Source: Desulfobulbaceae bacterium (lineage in GTDB: Bacteria > Desulfobacterota > Desulfobulbia > Desulfobulbales > Desulfurivibrionaceae). Taken from it: 64,000 bases of DNA. Every line of letters begins with the position of its first letter. Position 1 is the first letter of the stretch. This document shows, in pieces, positions 44,557 through 54,185 of the stretch. The stretch is from NCBI GenBank assembly GCA_004332195.1, contig SJBG01000003.1, positions 1 through 64,000 of the forward strand, in the 5' to 3' direction. The notes below the pieces were generated by a model. That model was given only the letters and a program-made list of their open reading frames with translations. It did not search any database and was not told where the DNA came from. A program made the position numbers and the translations under genes.

Positions 44557-45723
44557 TTAATGCCTTGCTGCTTCCGCATCTAAATTGAAAACTCGGCTGG
44601 CAACGAAGTAAAGCGCTAAACACAGGCCGAACCCGCCGATAACTATGGCGAATTCAGTAGCTGAGGGATTGTAGCTTACTAAGCCGGTGATCGGGTGCGC
44701 CCGGTCGACATCTGGGCGCAAAGGCACGAGCTGGCCAACCACCACCATGTTGTAACGCATGAAAAACAGGCCGATCAAGCTGCTGATCGCCGCAACAACT
44801 GATATTTCAAGTCTCTTGCCTCCGGTTGCCAACAGCAGAATAAAGGGCAGCAACAACCCAAGGAAGACGGCGAAAAACCAGTAGTGTAAGGCCATTGGCC
44901 CGTTGAGCAGGATCATCATGGCGTCGTGCTTGCCCGGAATACCGCCATAAATTGTAGTCATAACCTTCCAGAATTCAGCAAAGAGCAAGATACCCAGCAA
45001 GATGGTGAAAATCCTGCCGGTGGTTCTCACGGCTTGGTCAACATCCCTCGGCATTTTTTCCCGGTAGTAACGGTGAGCAAGAAGCAAAATCACGATGGCA
45101 CAGCCGCCGGCCGCGGCGGCGACAATGGTTGAGATCGGGATAAAGGGTCCCTGCCACCAGAGTCGGGCGTCCAGCAGGCCAAAGACCGATCCCAGGGTGG
45201 AGTGTTTGACTATTCCGCTGACAAAGCCGACCAGAATGGCGTAGCCGACATAGCGGTGCAGGCCCTTGGTCATCAAAATGAACGCGACTACGATTGCCGT
45301 TAGGTAGAGGCCGTATAGGGTCCCCATCCACCAGAGCGGGGCAGCGAGGTTGGGGCTGATTATGTTGTAAATCATCCGCAGGGGCTGGCCCAGTTCAAGG
45401 CCAATCACCACGAAAGCGGCGACCAACGTGATGATCGCCATGACAATGACCCTTTTGCCGATCACCTCAAAGGGTTCGAGGCCAAAGACGCGCGACAGCG
45501 AAGCAACCAGGCACAACCCGGTGGAGCTGAGCCCGAAAAAAATATAGGTTGAGATTAAAAGACCCCACGGCACCTGACGGTGGACGTTATAGGCGTCATG
45601 GCCCTGGATCAGGAAGTTGGTCAAGCCGATCAAGCCGATCAGGCAAAAAAGCCCGGTAGTAATGACCCAGATTCGATCGCCGCGGGAGTTGATCATTTTG
45701 CCGTTTATTGTAAGGAAATTCAT
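44557..45723 (-). CDS. NrfD/PsrC-type membrane subunit
   Basis: 388 residues, about ten transmembrane helices. PsrC/NrfD family anchor that exchanges electrons with the quinone pool for the adjacent FeS and molybdopterin subunits. Typical stretches: VPWGLLISTYIFFGLSSTGL, LELGQPLRMIYNIISPNL and the C-terminal LIGLFFMRYNMVVVGQLVPL. Start ATG at 45723 with AGAGGTGA in front. Last gene of the molybdoenzyme operon, 12 bases after the ferredoxin gene. Confidence 0.9.
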   Translation of the reverse strand: MNFLTINGKMINSRGDRIWVITTGLFCLIGLIGLTNFLIQGHDAYNVHRQVPWGLLISTYIFFGLSSTGLCLVASLSRVFGLEPFEVIGKRVIVMAIITLVAAFVVIGLELGQPLRMIYNIISPNLAAPLWWMGTLYGLYLTAIVVAFILMTKGLHRYVGYAILVGFVSGIVKHSTLGSVFGLLDARLWWQGPFIPISTIVAAAAGGCAIVILLLAHRYYREKMPRDVDQAVRTTGRIFTILLGILLFAEFWKVMTTIYGGIPGKHDAMMILLNGPMALHYWFFAVFLGLLLPFILLLATGGKRLEISVVAAISSLIGLFFMRYNMVVVGQLVPLRPDVDRAHPITGLVSYNPSATEFAIVIGGFGLCLALYFVASRVFNLDAEAARH

Positions 45724-45735
45724 ACTGATCACCTC

Positions 45736-46305
45736 TCAGGAAAGATAGAAAAGACTTGGTTGGGTGCCGCTTTTCGGCTTGAGCACAAAATAGTGATGTC
45801 GGGCAAGCAGCCTTGAGACTTCGCTCTCGGGGTCGTTGAGATCGCCAAAAACCCGCACCTTGGTCGGGCAGGTATCTACACAGGCCGGCTGTTTGCCCAC
45901 GGCAATCCGGTGATTGCAGAAGGTACACTTATCGATGACCTTGGTCTGGGGTGACTTAAAGCGGGCATCGTAAGGACAGGACAAAATACAGACCCCGCAG
46001 ACAATACAGCGCCTGCCATCAATCTGAACCAACCCATCTCGGTCGAGATGGGATGCCCTGGTCGGGCAGACCCGCACGCAAGGTGGATTAGCGCACTGCT
46101 GACACTGGCTGGGCTCAAAGCGCTGTTTGAGATTGGGGAAAGTCCCCTCTATTCCCCTGCTGGTGATCCAGTTGCGATAAACATCGCGGTTACCTTTGGC
46201 CTCGATGCCGTTTTCTCGTTTACAAGCAACATCACAGGCCTTGCAATCGAAACACTTGCGAGAATCGATCACCATGACCCAGCGTTTTTTACGATTTTCA
46301 GTCAT
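45736..46305 (-). CDS. 4Fe-4S ferredoxin subunit (DmsB/PsrB/NrfC-like)
   Basis: 189 residues. Four cysteine clusters of ferredoxin type: CFDCKACDVACK, CQQCANPPCVRVCP, CIVCGVCILSCP and CTFCNHRIAVGKQPACVDTCP. This is the electron-transfer subunit that links the molybdopterin protein to the membrane subunit. It has no signal peptide and would be carried through the Tat system with its catalytic partner. It is 3 bases downstream of the molybdoenzyme gene and 12 bases upstream of the NrfD gene. Confidence 0.94.
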   Translation of the reverse strand: MTENRKKRWVMVIDSRKCFDCKACDVACKRENGIEAKGNRDVYRNWITSRGIEGTFPNLKQRFEPSQCQQCANPPCVRVCPTRASHLDRDGLVQIDGRRCIVCGVCILSCPYDARFKSPQTKVIDKCTFCNHRIAVGKQPACVDTCPTKVRVFGDLNDPESEVSRLLARHHYFVLKPKSGTQPSLFYLS

Positions 46306-46308
46306 GAT

Positions 46309-48507
46309 TTAGGCCCTCCTAATTTCGACAATTGTTTCGTGTAGCAAGGCGCTGCCGGAGATCGACTCGAAGTGAGACTCCAAAATGGCCGCCTGGGAGG
46401 CGCCTTTGCCATAAACCAGGGGCTTGTCTGGTGAAAGAGAGTCAAAACCGTTGGCGTAATAAAGGCAGTCCGGACGGATGCCTTCGGTTAGCAGGGCTTT
46501 GATTTTGACCTCGCCCCCGGTGCGATTTTTCATCAGCACCGTATCTCCGGTCTTTATGCCTAATTTACGGGCCGATACCGGGTTAATCCAGACGGCGTTT
46601 TCCTTCATGTGCCAGTTAAGGTCCGGAAAAGCGGCGGTTGATGAGTGGGTATGGATGGCATGGCGGCCAACAACAAAGCGGAACTTGCCTTCCCCAATAT
46701 CTGCCGGTCGGCGATAAACAGGCAGAGGTTCGAGTCCGCGCCTGGCAAAATCCTCACTGTATAATTCGACCTTTCCGGTTTTGGTCCTGACGGTCTTTTT
46801 ACCGCTGCGATACTCGCCGAATTTGAGCTTAAGGTCAGTGCTAAAAAAGCCTTTTTCCCGTAACTTATCAAGGGATCCGGGGTGGTCGGCAAGAGCGGCC
46901 TTGGTGTGTGATTCAACGCTGCCCTCAAAATAGTCGCTGAGGGGTGCGCCATCCTCATCCTTAAAGTAGGCAGCCAGCTCGCTAACGATCTCAAAGCAGG
47001 GTTTGGTGTCGTACAGCGGTTTGATCAGCGGTTGGCGAAAAATCACCACCGGTTCGATCTCATCCAGGGCAACCGCGGGATCAAGGCGCTCCAGATAAGT
47101 GCTCTCCGGCAGGACCACATCCGAGTACCAAGCAGTGCCACTCATAAAAGGATCTACACAGACAATAATATCCAGCTTGGCAAATAACTCGAGGGTTTTG
47201 TTACGATCCGGGAGCATTTCAAGGACGTTCTGCTTGTAAATGAACAGTCCCCGAATGGCATAGGGGTCGGAACGCAAAGCCCGATCACGCCAAGGGATCC
47301 AAGCCCCGTCGCCGGGACTCATAAAGGTGACATCGCCCTGTTCCAGTCTGGGTCGAAATTTGGTGTACCAGGCGGGCTCGTAGAAGTAGGGCGCAAGGGG
47401 GATTTCAAGTGCGGGGATCAAGCCGCCGGGCCGGTCGAAGGCGCCAACGATGGCGTTGACCATAGCAATGGCCCGTCTGGTCTGGACTTCATCTCCCTGC
47501 CAGGTTGTACGGCGACCGTGATAAAAAACCGCGCTGGGAGTGGTGGCAAATTCGCGGGCAATTTGCCGAATATCGCCAGCGCTAATATCGGTCTCCCTCT
47601 CTGCCCACTCGGGGGTGTATTGCCTAACATGTTCGGCCAACTCGGCAAAGCCGACGCAGTGCTTATCGATAAAGTCCTGGTCGTGTAAACCCTCGCCGAT
47701 AATCACATTCATCATGGCCAACGCAAAAGCCATATCGCTGCCAGGTTTGATTGGGAGCCATTTGTCGGCCAGCGCGGCGGTTTTGGTGAAACGGGGATCA
47801 AGATAGATGAGCTTGCGGGAACCTATCGGCCGCTTAAACAGATCAATGGTGGCCGGGGGGATTATGCCCTCGGCGAGGTTAGCGCCGGCCAGAATCAAAT
47901 AATGGCTGTTGCGAACATCGACCGCCGGGTAAGTCCCGAAAACTGATTGAAAGCCCCGGATAACCGCGCTTAGGCAGAGGGTGGGGTGGCGCACGGCATT
48001 TGGTGACCCAAACACCTCGCGAAACTGATGGAAGTAATGTTCCTGAAAGGTGCCCTTGGTCGAGGCGAAGGCGATGCAGGAGCGGTGTCCCCCCTCCTCT
48101 GCCACCACCCTGTTGGTTTTTTCGGCGATATAGCGGTAGGCCTCATCCCAGGATGCTTTACGCCACTTGCCTTCACCTCGTTTGCCGGTGCGAATCATCG
48201 GACTCTTGACCCGGTTGGGATCATATGGAGTAGCCGCCCCGGCGTTACCCCGGGCGCACATCATGCCGCGGGATTTGGGAAAATCCGGTTCCGGCTCCAG
48301 GCGCTTGATCACTCCGTTGACCACCTGGCCGCGAAACACGCACGCGCTGACGCAGATATTGCAACTGGAGTTGACATAGCGGGTCTGCTCGGTCCTTGTC
48401 GGTTGAGCCATGGCCTGACTCACATAACGTAAGCCGGCCGATCCCGCCCCCAGGGCCCCGACGCCGGCCAGTGAGCCGGCAATGAATTTTCTGCGGGTAA
48501 CCGTCAT
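46309..48507 (-). CDS. Tat-exported molybdopterin oxidoreductase, PsrA/PhsA/TtrA type
   Basis: 732 residues. Tat signal TVTRRKFIAGSLAGVGALGA at the N-terminus, so the enzyme acts in the periplasm. A 4Fe-4S site (CNICVSACVFRG, then MMCARGNAG) is followed by the molybdopterin domains (YLDPRFTKTAALADKWLPIK, KIKPGSD-like, VVLPESTYLERLD) and the dinucleotide-binding domain ending (VWINPVSARKLGIKTGDTVL). The cysteine in HPTLCLSAVIRG may ligate molybdenum. Together with the FeS and NrfD subunits it forms a CISM-type reductase for a sulfur compound, arsenate or similar; the substrate cannot be read. Start ATG at 48507, with AAGGAG upstream. Confidence 0.88.
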   Translation of the reverse strand: MTVTRRKFIAGSLAGVGALGAGSAGLRYVSQAMAQPTRTEQTRYVNSSCNICVSACVFRGQVVNGVIKRLEPEPDFPKSRGMMCARGNAGAATPYDPNRVKSPMIRTGKRGEGKWRKASWDEAYRYIAEKTNRVVAEEGGHRSCIAFASTKGTFQEHYFHQFREVFGSPNAVRHPTLCLSAVIRGFQSVFGTYPAVDVRNSHYLILAGANLAEGIIPPATIDLFKRPIGSRKLIYLDPRFTKTAALADKWLPIKPGSDMAFALAMMNVIIGEGLHDQDFIDKHCVGFAELAEHVRQYTPEWAERETDISAGDIRQIAREFATTPSAVFYHGRRTTWQGDEVQTRRAIAMVNAIVGAFDRPGGLIPALEIPLAPYFYEPAWYTKFRPRLEQGDVTFMSPGDGAWIPWRDRALRSDPYAIRGLFIYKQNVLEMLPDRNKTLELFAKLDIIVCVDPFMSGTAWYSDVVLPESTYLERLDPAVALDEIEPVVIFRQPLIKPLYDTKPCFEIVSELAAYFKDEDGAPLSDYFEGSVESHTKAALADHPGSLDKLREKGFFSTDLKLKFGEYRSGKKTVRTKTGKVELYSEDFARRGLEPLPVYRRPADIGEGKFRFVVGRHAIHTHSSTAAFPDLNWHMKENAVWINPVSARKLGIKTGDTVLMKNRTGGEVKIKALLTEGIRPDCLYYANGFDSLSPDKPLVYGKGASQAAILESHFESISGSALLHETIVEIRRA

Positions 48508-48531
48508 AATTCTGATTCTCCTTAGATTAAT

Positions 48532-48673
48532 GGCCACCTTGAAAAATTAGCTATTTTGTTCGAGTTTACGGCACGTAAAAAAAAAAAACGCAAGCATATG
48601 GTTGATATTCCGAAGGATAATTTTTTGAGCATAACGCAGAAAACGGACGAAAGAGCAATTTTTCAAGGTGGCC
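48532..48673 (+). mobile_element. MITE-like element, copy F (142 bp)
   Basis: Same family, plus orientation, with a perfect TAAT duplication (48528-48531 and 48674-48677). It has several private changes (for example an extended A-run and AAACGGACG in place of AAATCGGGCG) and looks older than the others. It separates torD from the molybdoenzyme gene within one likely operon. Confidence 0.88.
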
Positions 48674-48755
48674 TAATGATTATCAGTCGTATAATTTTGC
48701 TCAGACCAATATGACCGATTTCCTCTTTCCTCACAAGTCCTTCGTTTTTGGTCGG

Positions 48756-49292
48756 TCAAGCTCGCAGAGCGTATGGAGACTGGAGACTCTGGTGGCCCTG
48801 CGGCAGGCAATCGTGCCGCAGGGCCACCAGAGTCTCCTTGATCTCAGCCCCCAGCGCCGCATAAAAACCGGTGCGGTCATGTTGGTCTAAGGCGGCGGCA
48901 AAGGCGGTCGGCCAGTGGTGGTAATAAGTGTCAAGCAGGATAAAAATATCCAGATCGGCTGAATCGTCGGCCCGGGCCGACAGCAAGGTCAGAGCCTCCA
49001 GCATGGCCGGGATGTGGTCGGGGGGGTGTGATGTTCCGAGTACAACCCCGTGACGCAGACAAAGACCGTTGAAGTTAATCATGAACCGGTGGCGATCTTC
49101 AGAGTCAAGGTAGCAGCCGGCGTAGGGTGGAGCCTTGACTCCACCCCGATCGCTCATAAACAAACGAACATGATTGTTTTCCAGATCCGTAAGATCGAGT
49201 TGGAGTTGTTCGGCCATTTCCGCCGATGGATAGACGAAACATCCAGCCAGGTTAAGCAGTTTGCCAGCAATGGCAACCGGGTTGCTGTTCAT
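48756..49292 (-). CDS. TorD/DmsD family chaperone for the molybdoenzyme
   Basis: 178 residues. Helical cytoplasmic chaperone that delivers cofactor-loaded molybdoenzymes to Tat. The family segment appears as VKAPPYAGCYLDSEDR and LDIFILLDTYYHHWPTAFAA. The enzyme subunit gene follows downstream on the same strand, after MITE copy F. The last 16 codons (LPQGHQSLQSPYALRA) are largely produced by the complement arm of a 24-base inverted repeat, so the C-terminus is probably not ancestral. Confidence 0.8.
   Translation of the reverse strand: MNSNPVAIAGKLLNLAGCFVYPSAEMAEQLQLDLTDLENNHVRLFMSDRGGVKAPPYAGCYLDSEDRHRFMINFNGLCLRHGVVLGTSHPPDHIPAMLEALTLLSARADDSADLDIFILLDTYYHHWPTAFAAALDQHDRTGFYAALGAEIKETLVALRHDCLPQGHQSLQSPYALRA
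48782..48837. repeat. 24-base perfect inverted repeat at the torD 3' end
   Basis: Bases 48782-48805 (starting GGAGACTCTGGTGG) are repeated as their exact complement at 48814-48837 with an 8-base spacer. The repeat lies inside the torD reading frame just before the stop, so it both forms a strong hairpin and writes the C-terminal residues. A direct repeat TGGAGAC TGGAGAC adjoins it at 48774-48787. Confidence 0.9.
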
Positions 49293-50010: not shown

Positions 50011-51669
50011 ATGCGGTGGACAAAATATTTGGCTGGCATTGCTTGGCTCTCTTCTCAAAGAGGTTTGAGCGCTTGGGGCCTAAAACCGTTTTGCCTTAAA
50101 CTGCTGCTGATAGTCCTGGTTTTTGCACCCTCGGCGGGACAAGCAGACAAAGGCAGCCTGTTCTATTTTGGCGGAGGCGGTCAACAAACCATCAGTGGCT
50201 CGCTCCATGTTCTGGCAACCGCCAAGGGTTTATATTTGATTGATGTTGGCAACTTTATGGGGGCCGATGGCGCCAACTACCCTTGGCCGGCCGAGATTCC
50301 AGTGGATAAAATCCGCGCGGTTTTTATCACCCATGTCCATGCCGACCATATCGGGCGTTTACCCCTCCTCTTGCAAGAAGGTTACCGGGGGCCGATCTAT
50401 ATGAGTCGGGTCAGCTATGAACTTGCCCGGATTGTTTTGCCGGCCAGTCTTCGATTTCTAAATTTCGGCCAAGAGCGCTTCTATTACTCCCGTCATCATG
50501 AAGGTCGCAAGCGGATTCCGGTTTACCTTGCGAGCTATGTCGGCGATAGTCCCGTGACCCCGCCCAACCGAGTTTACTTTGAAACGCAGTGCCGTCAACT
50601 GGCCACAAATGGTTACTTTTTAGCCGGGTCGCAACGAAAGCAACTGGAAAATGAATTGTTGGCGCGCCTGGCGGCCCAGGTCACGATCATTGACCCTGGT
50701 GACGCGCCCGTTGCCGTCGGTGATTTTAAGGTGCAGTTTTTTGCCACCCCTCATATTGCCGGCAGCGTGATGGTTAAACTGGATTATCAGGGGTTTACCC
50801 TACTGTTTTCGGGAGATATTGGCCCGGAAGGTTCACCCTTGTTGCCGGCCAACCCCCGTTTTGTGTCAAATATAGACGTGCTGGTGCTGGGAGGCACTTA
50901 CGCTGAAGACCGGCGGGTTGCGCTTACTCAGGGGCGCCGCGAGTTTCGTGAAAAACTGGCCGCCTGGATTCGGGCCGATTACCGAGTAGTAATTCCGGCC
51001 TTTGCGCTGGATCGCAGTCAGCAGGTGATGTTTGAAATCAGCCGGGCAATGAGCGCCAACTTGTTAGCCGAAGACCAGGTGATCCGGGTGTGCAGCCCGA
51101 CGGCTAACCGCCTGCTAAAACTGTACGCCAACTTTGTGGGCCGACAAGATGAGTTTGGCGCTTATTTTCAATCGGAAACGATAGACCCAGCGGATTTTCT
51201 CCCGCCGGGTTATCGCTTTGGCTGCCGCAGCGGTGATTCCGCCAATCCGCTGGGTCTGCAACATGGTGAGATCGGCATCATGTCTTCCGGGATGGCCCAG
51301 CACGCCTCCGCTCGTCAGGCCCTGCTCGATTACCTGGGAGATCCTAAAACAGTCTTTGTCTTTGTCAGTTATCAGGCCCCAGACACCCCCGGCGGTCGCC
51401 TCACCGCCGGGAGCGACCCGCCGCGAGAATTGAAGCTGGACGGTCAGCGCCATAAGGTCCGAGCTAAAATTTACCATACTGCCGCCTTCGGTGGTCATGC
51501 CGATCCCGCGACCATAATTCAAATTTTTGCCGCCACCCAGCCGCAACAGATCTTTTTGGTTCATCTCGATAAGCCTAGTATCCCGGCTTTGATCCGCCGT
51601 TACCGGGAATCTTTTCCGAAAGCCATCATAACCGTCCCTCGCTTGGGCGAACGGCACCGCTTGCAATAA
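50011..51669 (+). CDS. Exported beta-CASP metallo-beta-lactamase-fold protein
   Basis: 552 residues. N-terminal signal-like segment (KPFCLKLLLIVLVFAPSAGQ, cleavage near ADKGS), then a metallo-beta-lactamase fold with FITHVHADHIGRLPLLLQEG, LLFSGDIGPEGSPLLP, and the beta-CASP insertion with VVIPAFALDRSQQVMFEI, IMSSGMAQHASARQALL and TAAFGGHADPATI. These match the metal-binding and beta-CASP motifs of RNA-processing nucleases. Normal relatives are cytoplasmic, so export is unusual. The motif ESTYGDR is replaced by GGTYAEDRRV. ATG at 50011 is preceded by GGTGGTGACAAGAG. Confidence 0.8.
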   Translation: MRWTKYLAGIAWLSSQRGLSAWGLKPFCLKLLLIVLVFAPSAGQADKGSLFYFGGGGQQTISGSLHVLATAKGLYLIDVGNFMGADGANYPWPAEIPVDKIRAVFITHVHADHIGRLPLLLQEGYRGPIYMSRVSYELARIVLPASLRFLNFGQERFYYSRHHEGRKRIPVYLASYVGDSPVTPPNRVYFETQCRQLATNGYFLAGSQRKQLENELLARLAAQVTIIDPGDAPVAVGDFKVQFFATPHIAGSVMVKLDYQGFTLLFSGDIGPEGSPLLPANPRFVSNIDVLVLGGTYAEDRRVALTQGRREFREKLAAWIRADYRVVIPAFALDRSQQVMFEISRAMSANLLAEDQVIRVCSPTANRLLKLYANFVGRQDEFGAYFQSETIDPADFLPPGYRFGCRSGDSANPLGLQHGEIGIMSSGMAQHASARQALLDYLGDPKTVFVFVSYQAPDTPGGRLTAGSDPPRELKLDGQRHKVRAKIYHTAAFGGHADPATIIQIFAATQPQQIFLVHLDKPSIPALIRRYRESFPKAIITVPRLGERHRLQ

Positions 51670-51813
51670 TTGCCGACTTTTGACAAATCAGGTAGCATCA
51701 TTTTTGTCTGAAGATTCACCAGCGCCGGATTTCGCTAAACTTAATTTTAGGTGAACTATTCTTGTTTTCGCAACACTTTTTATAGACTTAACAGCCACTT
51801 GCCAGAAGGGGAT

Positions 51814-53049
51814 ATGAAAACAAGCCCGGTTTATCCACGTTTTCTCGGCGACGAAGCCGAGGTTGGAGTTCCCCCCCGCTTTGCCGTCATTTCCGCCCCA
51901 CTGGCTAAAACCTTGAGCTGGGGTTTGGGGGCCGACGCCGGTCCCGCCGCAATCCTGGCAGCTTCCCCAGCCCTGGAGGTTTTCGATGATGAACTGTTGC
52001 AGGAAACCGTGCAAGCCGGGATTATCACCCGGCCTCCGCTCAACTTTAACGATTGCAACTTGGTCGAGGCCTGCGAGCTGATTCGCAAAGCGGTAGCCCA
52101 CGAATTGGCGAGCGAGATTTTTCCGGTAGTGCTGGGCGGTGAACACACGGTAAGTGGCCCGGCAGTAACCGCCATGGCTGCCAGGTATCCCGATCTGCAT
52201 GTAGTTCAGGTGGATGCCCATCTTGATCTGCGTGACGTTTACGGTGGCGCTCCCTTAAGTCATGCCAGCGTAATGCGGCGGGTGGCCGATCTTAAGCTGC
52301 CCTTCACCCAGGTGGGAATTCGTTCCTTTTCCGGCGAGGAGTGGCAATTAGTTCGGGAGCGAGGCTGGCGGCCCTTCACCATGACCCGAATCCATGAGCA
52401 GCAAGACTGGCTGACCCAACTGCTGGCGACAATCAAAGGCCCGGTTTATCTTACTATCGATGTTGATGGTCTAGATCCGGCGATCATGCCGGCTACCGGC
52501 ACCCCGGAACCCGACGGACTTTCCTGGCGCCAAGTCACCGCCCTGACCAGGGCCTTAGCCCGCCAACCTCGCGGCCTGGTGGGCCTTGATCTGGTGGAGT
52601 TATCTCCCCGGCCCGGCTTGGAACACGCCGCCTACACCGCGGCCAAGCTGATTTATCGCACCCTGGGTTATGTGGTGGCCGCTGGGGAGTTGTTTTCCTG
52701 TCGCAATTGCGGCTATTGTTGTCAAGGAGAAACCACGGTTTCGCTGGATGAAGAGGACCGGGAGCGGATGAGCGCCCATCTAGGATTGCCGTTTGCCGAG
52801 CTTAAACGGCGTTATCTGCGGGTTTCCGGCAACACCGTGCAGATGAAGACCGTAGACGGCCACTGTGTTTTCCACGATAACGGTTGTACCATTCACGAGA
52901 GCAAGCCCTGGCGCTGTCGGCAGTGGCCCTTGCACCCCAGTGCTCTTGCCGATCCCGGCAACTTCGCGGTAATCAGCGAGTCCTGCCCCGGTTTCAGGCC
53001 CGGCTTGAGCCACGAAGCATTTCGTCGTAGCCTGGGTTGGCGCAAATAG
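51814..53049 (+). CDS. Agmatinase/arginase-family enzyme fused to a YkgJ CxxCxxCC domain
   Basis: 411 residues. The N-terminal ureohydrolase part has GGEHTVSG (about 109), the manganese motif DAHLDLRDVYGG (about 133) with SHASVMRR, and TIDVDGLDPAIMPATGTPEP (about 214). From about residue 293 the chain continues into CRNCGYCC, then CVFHDNGCTIHESKPWRCRQ and SCPGF, the YkgJ zinc/iron-chelating family (CxxCxxCC domain). Start ATG at 51814 has AAGGGG in front; a longer frame from 51751 adds a non-conserved stretch. Substrate could be agmatine or another guanidino compound. The fusion is uncommon in my knowledge. Confidence 0.85.
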   Translation: MKTSPVYPRFLGDEAEVGVPPRFAVISAPLAKTLSWGLGADAGPAAILAASPALEVFDDELLQETVQAGIITRPPLNFNDCNLVEACELIRKAVAHELASEIFPVVLGGEHTVSGPAVTAMAARYPDLHVVQVDAHLDLRDVYGGAPLSHASVMRRVADLKLPFTQVGIRSFSGEEWQLVRERGWRPFTMTRIHEQQDWLTQLLATIKGPVYLTIDVDGLDPAIMPATGTPEPDGLSWRQVTALTRALARQPRGLVGLDLVELSPRPGLEHAAYTAAKLIYRTLGYVVAAGELFSCRNCGYCCQGETTVSLDEEDRERMSAHLGLPFAELKRRYLRVSGNTVQMKTVDGHCVFHDNGCTIHESKPWRCRQWPLHPSALADPGNFAVISESCPGFRPGLSHEAFRRSLGWRK

Positions 53050-53210
53050 GTGGGGTTGCTCCTTTTATTCCTGAAAAACCGGGAGATTGCAAGTATAAGG
53101 TTAAGGCAAACGGTGAAAGAGTGACTGAGGCCCTCAGCCCGGACCAACCGCGCTTGACTACGGGCGTTTGCCGGTTCACGTTTAATCGCTAACCGCAGAG
53201 GAGAAAAAGA

Positions 53211-54185
53211 ATGAGTCAGACGGCCGCTTCTCGAAGCAATATTTTACTTGAGTCCGGCACCAACGAGCTGGAAGTGATTACTCTTTATTTGCGATGGCTC
53301 GACCCCTTATCCGTCGGGACGGCAGCCCAGGCCGCCTACGGGATTAACGCTGCCAAGGTCCGGGAGCTGGTGGCCATGCCCACCGAATTGACCGAGATCC
53401 CCGACTCGCATCCCTCGGTACGCGGAGTTTTTCTTTTGCGCGGTCGGACTATTCCCTTGGTCGACCTTTGTCACTGGTTCGGCTATACCCCGGACACCTC
53501 ACCGGAGGCTATGGTCAAATGGGTGGTAGTGGTATCTGAAATCAACGGCAAGCTCTTCAGCTTCATCTCCCACGGGGTGGATAAGGTTTACCGAATTTCC
53601 TGGAGCCAGATCATGCCGCCGCCTGAAATAATTGCCAGGCACAGCAGTCTCACCGGCATGTGCCTGGTCAATGATCGGGTTATCCAGATGATCGACTTTG
53701 AAAAAATTTGTGCGGATATCGATTCGTCGATGGCCGTAGACCACGTCACTCACGCCATCAAGGAGCGTGCCGACGCCGACCAGGTCAACAAGCATGTGGT
53801 TATCGCCGACGATTCCGCCACCATCCGGGAGCAGATCAAGCGCACCCTGGAAAGGGCTGATTACCGGGTCAAGGCTTTTTCCGATGGCCAGTCGACCTGG
53901 GATTTTCTGGAGCAAACCATGGGTGATGGCGCGGTGGATAGTCAGATTCTGGCGGTCGTCTCAGACATCGAAATGCCGCAGATGGACGGCCATCATCTAT
54001 GTATGAAAATCAAGCAACAACCGGATTTCAAGCGGGTGCCGGTGCTGCTTTTTTCCTCCCTGATCAATGCTGCCACCCGCCACAAGGGAGAGCAGGTCGG
54101 GGCTGACGACCAGATCACCAAGCCCGAGCTGGACACCCTGGTGAAGCGGCTGCAGGGGTGTTTGAAAAAACTTGCTAATGGCTAG
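53211..54185 (+). CDS. cheV: Chemotaxis coupling protein CheV
   Basis: 324 residues: an N-terminal CheW-like domain (YGINAAKVRELVAMPTELTE, VRGVFLLRGRTIPLVDLCHW) and a C-terminal receiver domain starting VVIADDSATIREQIKRTLER, with the phosphorylatable aspartate in VVSDIEMPQMDGHHL and the conserved threonine/serine and lysine in LLFSSL and ITKPEL. CheV couples receptors to CheA and is modulated by phosphorylation. GAGGAGAAAAAG precedes the ATG. It stands alone; no other chemotaxis genes are in the window. Confidence 0.93.
   Translation: MSQTAASRSNILLESGTNELEVITLYLRWLDPLSVGTAAQAAYGINAAKVRELVAMPTELTEIPDSHPSVRGVFLLRGRTIPLVDLCHWFGYTPDTSPEAMVKWVVVVSEINGKLFSFISHGVDKVYRISWSQIMPPPEIIARHSSLTGMCLVNDRVIQMIDFEKICADIDSSMAVDHVTHAIKERADADQVNKHVVIADDSATIREQIKRTLERADYRVKAFSDGQSTWDFLEQTMGDGAVDSQILAVVSDIEMPQMDGHHLCMKIKQQPDFKRVPVLLFSSLINAATRHKGEQVGADDQITKPELDTLVKRLQGCLKKLANG

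Follow-up and report, generated by a model that had tools for sequence, protein, structure and literature searches.

Agmatinase and YkgJ in one open frame: a fusion most likely private to one lineage of Desulfobulbales and without a new function

Do an agmatinase and a YkgJ-type cysteine-cluster domain that share one reading frame form a new functional unit, or does the frame record the joining of two neighbouring genes? The question is raised by a gene in the window analysed here, a stretch of 64,000 nucleotides from a Desulfobulbaceae genome. At 51814-53049 (+), a single open frame of 411 aa runs from ATG to stop with no internal stop, and in it an agmatinase-type ureohydrolase passes without a linker into a YkgJ-type CxxCxxCC domain that is complete. 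The two families (PF00491 and PF03692) are known, their combination appears to be new, and no description of agmatinase combined with YkgJ was found in the literature searched. The original prediction had placed an in-frame fusion of an arginase/agmatinase with a YkgJ-type domain at exactly these coordinates and had called both halves intact. Both statements are borne out, the second by the PF00491, TIGR01230 and PF03692 scores together with the motifs and eight cysteines described below. Its host group, the Desulfobacterota, also fits, as the closest relatives of the window genome are Desulfurivibrio genomes. The fusion is most likely true but private to one lineage, and without a new function.

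Table 1. Positions in the window of the fused gene, its parts and its downstream flank
Feature	Positions	Strand	Remarks
Shine-Dalgarno-like AGAAGGGG	51804..51811	+	Precedes the fused gene; good site 5' of the ATG at 51814; seen in the sequence
Agmatinase-type ureohydrolase half	51814..52683	+	Residues 1-290; PF00491 at 23-282
Junction, LGYVVAAGELFS then first YkgJ Cys	52666..52698	+	Site, in relatives, of the agmatinase stop and of the start of ykgJ with a ribosome-binding site; all gone in the window
YkgJ-type CxxCxxCC half	52684..53049	+	Residues 291-411; first cysteine codon 52699; eight conserved cysteines
161-nt gap to next gene	53050..53210	+	Genus-mates have rlmH and (in the genus) a gene for a 135-aa membrane-like protein; both missing in the window
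CheW-response-regulator (CheV-like) gene	53211..54185	+	Downstream synteny with genus-mates kept

The first half has the hallmarks of an intact ureohydrolase. It matched the Arginase family with an E value of 9e-62 (209 bits against a cut-off of 22; Pfam) and scored above threshold with the agmatinase model TIGR01230 (193.3 bits against 174.3; NCBIfam). Agmatinase structures were the top Foldseek matches, with 3pzl at E 8e-23, which points to the arginase/agmatinase fold. This half shares 73-76% identity with the stand-alone agmatinase of the genus-mates. It contains the motifs GGEH (residue 108), DAHLDLRD (134), SHAS (149), DVDGLDP (216) and DLVELSP (259), which from general knowledge of the family we take to supply the six Mn ligands and the catalytic His and Glu. 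In other words, the window protein shares motifs, fold and an above-cut-off score with the SpeB/ureohydrolase family (3pzl, 1wog, 3lhl and 7lba among the structures), but it alone has an extra C-terminal YkgJ domain, and its substrate is a predicted one. Agmatine fits as the substrate because speA is present elsewhere in the genome (713 bits with TIGR01273, whose cut-off is 624) and its product, the arginine decarboxylase SpeA, would make agmatine; a search for a pyruvoyl arginine decarboxylase as the agmatine source found none. Judged by its family, this half has most likely retained the hydrolysis of agmatine, which yields putrescine and urea, at a dinuclear Mn site.

The second half is equally recognizable. 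The CxxCxxCC family (PF03692) matched residues 296-391 at E 1e-9, with 39.4 bits against a cut-off of 23 (Pfam). The eight cysteines, at residues 296, 299, 302, 303, 351, 358, 368 and 391, are invariant in all 28 aligned rows (27 separate YkgJ proteins and the window). There are 31 invariant columns across these 28 sequences, and every residue that is invariant among the 27 separate proteins is also kept in the window. The separate YkgJ of Desulfobulbales is encoded by a gene of ~130 aa in front of rlmH; the window half shares all its invariant residues but has no start of its own, is joined to the agmatinase and is missing the downstream rlmH, a neighbour that characterizes the Desulfobulbales subgroup and does not define the family. 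The 121 additional codons would stay open in a random frame with a probability of ~0.003, and the domain that they encode shares 66-71% identity with the separate YkgJ of the genus-mates.

What might the cysteines do? The flagellin lysine methyltransferase FliB contains an oxygen-sensitive [4Fe-4S] cluster that is needed for methyl transfer, and its authors themselves liken its cysteine-rich motif to PF03692 (PMC8598068). FliB and the window YkgJ half each have eight conserved cysteines (PMC8598068), whereas the spacing differs, being CX4CX3CC in FliB, as described in that paper, and CX2CX2CC in the window. By analogy with FliB, an Fe-S cluster, probably [4Fe-4S], is most likely still held by the cysteines of the YkgJ half. 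There was no sign of a link to flagellin for the window half. It most likely also keeps whatever activity the separate YkgJ proteins have. No solved structure related to YkgJ was found. In the AlphaFold2 model of the full 411-aa protein (mean pLDDT 88.7), from which no relative placement of the domains is taken, the agmatinase half was predicted with confidence and the cysteine motif was poorly defined (residues 297-307, pLDDT <50). The YkgJ half modelled alone had a mean pLDDT of 67, not enough to support a fold search.

How are the two genes arranged in relatives? Both were present in 23 other genomes of the family and were separate in all 23. They were neighbours in 20 of these, each with an agmatinase stop and a ykgJ start of its own when the frames were read, and lay ~7, ~7 and ~50 kb apart by their coordinates in the other three. 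Several of the neighbouring pairs share a few bases (ATGA), an arrangement typical of co-translated genes. A search covering 395 genomes of the phylum and all 27 family genomes available to it turned up no other fused copy; an unbroken full-length match came from the window genome only. Likewise, when 84,980 species genomes were scanned, a procedure that reaches close relatives only and may omit the window's own species, 80 loci were retained and none of them was fused. A second fusion had seemed to exist in G404 and G405, whose listed frames are 472 and 464 aa; it was rejected because the DNA shows an agmatinase stop and a separate ykgJ.

The junction indicates how the two genes may have become one. 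In genus-mates, the agmatinase ends with LGY, a few residues and a stop, followed by, for example, GAGGAAGCACCATG and a YkgJ that opens with MSVEDFYQCRQCGYCC. The window protein reads LGY-VVAAGELFS-CRNCGYCC across the join, so that the agmatinase tail touches the YkgJ head, with just 9 codons from the Y of LGY to the first Cys. Alignment places the join between the final agmatinase residues LGYV and the ELFSC that precedes and includes the first Cys (compare EELFHC and EDFYQC in relatives). There is no in-frame ATG at the junction and no Shine-Dalgarno sequence before its in-frame GTG and TTG codons; a separate YkgJ start is therefore hardly possible. The simplest account of the junction is a real in-frame deletion.

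The flanks of the gene have changed as well. The gene upstream differs, being a divergent DUF362 gene in the genus-mates and a beta-CASP metallo-hydrolase in the window. Downstream, the large gene 3' of the CheV-like gene also retains the order of the genus. The locus is thus rearranged on both sides, and the join fits as one among several local changes. The beta-CASP metallo-beta-lactamase protein itself (50011-51669, +, 552 aa) has an apparent N-terminal signal or membrane segment and shows weak similarity, far below cut-off, to archaeal aCPSF1 and type VII Cas14 models; an exported beta-CASP protein, if true, would be unusual. Further upstream, at 44557-49292 (-), lies a molybdopterin oxidoreductase operon encoding an NrfD-type membrane subunit, a 4Fe-4S subunit, a catalytic subunit and a NarJ/TorD-like chaperone. 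The encoded enzyme is probably a reductase of the polysulphide/thiosulphate/tetrathionate type.

It is quite probable that the gene arose as a lineage-specific in-frame fusion of the neighbours agmatinase and ykgJ, both halves likely remaining in their old jobs and merely tethered. A small deletion or rearrangement would have taken the agmatinase stop along with the ykgJ start and its ribosome-binding site while preserving the frame. The same locus also lost rlmH, which otherwise lies 3' of ykgJ, and carries an upstream gene unlike that of the genus-mates. The two activities are probably just tethered, one polypeptide having come out of the breakage of the locus with neither domain serving the other.

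Does the YkgJ half still work? A second reading overlaps with the lineage-specific fusion on the origin of the gene and differs only on this point. It holds that, after the loss of rlmH, YkgJ became a decaying passenger and the agmatinase gained a tail. The missing rlmH is consistent with decay, as is the branch of the YkgJ half, which is somewhat longer than those of its relatives, at 0.32 compared with 0.15 for the closest separate YkgJ; the branch of the agmatinase half is not lengthened (0.20 against 0.18). The longer branch could reflect relaxed constraint or a new constraint. However, all residues invariant in the 27 separate YkgJ proteins are kept, including the eight cysteines, and pN/pS of the YkgJ half is ~0.3. 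In pairwise comparisons with genus-mates and one further genus, pN/pS was 0.25-0.37 for the agmatinase half and lay at 0.26-0.36 for the YkgJ half. Separate relatives compared with one another fall in this range too, and the values indicate purifying selection on both halves similar to that on the separate proteins. Synonymous sites are near saturation in these comparisons and, if the fusion is recent, most of the measured history is older than it, so these values show intact genes and say nothing firm on the fused form. In other words, conservation relative to relatives may mostly predate the join, and the function of the fused protein is a presumed one. Overall, a decaying YkgJ half is unlikely.

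A third reading is that the frame is an assembly or sequencing artefact and the genes are really separate, as in every relative. The original prediction took homologues that are always two genes to point to such an artefact. They are indeed two genes in 23 of 23 genomes and the join was seen in one, but an artefact is not clearly indicated: neither stop nor start nor ribosome-binding site is left and the frame is kept, which argues for a lineage-specific join. A single-base error is a poor explanation because neither alternative frame gives the layout of the relatives. In one, the agmatinase would continue well into ykgJ, to a stop 52 nt beyond the codon for the first Cys; in the other, there is no stop from the ATG at 52670 to the end of the stretch read. 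The agmatinase reaches the first YkgJ cysteine codon in no relative. A chimera would need its breakpoint to lie precisely between the two conserved parts and to preserve the frame, and both sides are similarly diverged from the genus-mates. An artefact is therefore quite improbable. With the join in a single genome, a possible frame-keeping assembly error weakens the lineage-specific fusion, which still stands as the likely explanation.

Could the fusion instead be a new functional unit, in which the YkgJ domain tunes polyamine synthesis, either by sensing iron or the redox state or by supplying metal? Both domains are intact with all key residues, the neighbouring position of the two genes in most of the family makes co-expression likely, and the last agmatinase helix (270-293) is predicted to extend as far as the YkgJ domain at a join that has no linker. 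However, the fusion occurs in one genome only, agmatinases of solved structure have no YkgJ domain, and within the flank examined no agmatinase was found by ykgJ in Desulfobulbales beyond the Desulfurivibrio family. The constant partner of ykgJ is a different gene, rlmH, which encodes the 23S rRNA pseudouridine-1915 methyltransferase. It directly follows ykgJ in every Desulfobulbales locus of this ykgJ subgroup that was checked and extends that far, whether an agmatinase lies upstream or, as in 22 loci of the species scan, none lies in the compared flank. In one locus (L146), the agmatinase is 7 kb off and ykgJ yet adjoins rlmH. Adjacency to an agmatinase is thus a feature at the level of the family. 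The roles first proposed for YkgJ, namely metal delivery, redox sensing or substrate modification, are thus unsupported by a one-genome fusion whose ykgJ counterpart lies 7-50 kb off in some genomes and is constantly paired with rlmH, and a functional unit is very unlikely. Also very unlikely is a bifunctional enzyme in which an Fe-S-type YkgJ domain acts on the agmatinase, controlling or modifying it, and so couples the synthesis of polyamines to iron or to the redox state; if true, it would expose a link already hinted at by the gene neighbourhood of the family.

The window genome measures 1.66 Mb and is listed as 100% complete; two genus-mates of 99-100% completeness have 2.8-3.1 Mb. Neither RlmH nor RsfS had a match anywhere in the searched window genome, although both are present in all four genus-mates. 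Either the lineage is reduced or the assembly has missing parts.

The pairing of ykgJ with rlmH reaches beyond this fusion. A highly conserved YkgJ-type cysteine-cluster gene lies right before rlmH across Desulfobulbales loci (L004-L160; for example, L141:8313-9156), and a second search found the same order in 11 of 11 further loci of the order. Outside Desulfobulbales, rlmH was found within ~1.5 kb of ykgJ in none of 18 loci. The constant pairing suggests a ribosome-related role for this YkgJ family, as a lead rather than a result. It is the more useful by-product of the analysis, a clue to a widespread and barely studied cysteine-cluster family that is perhaps connected to the ribosome.
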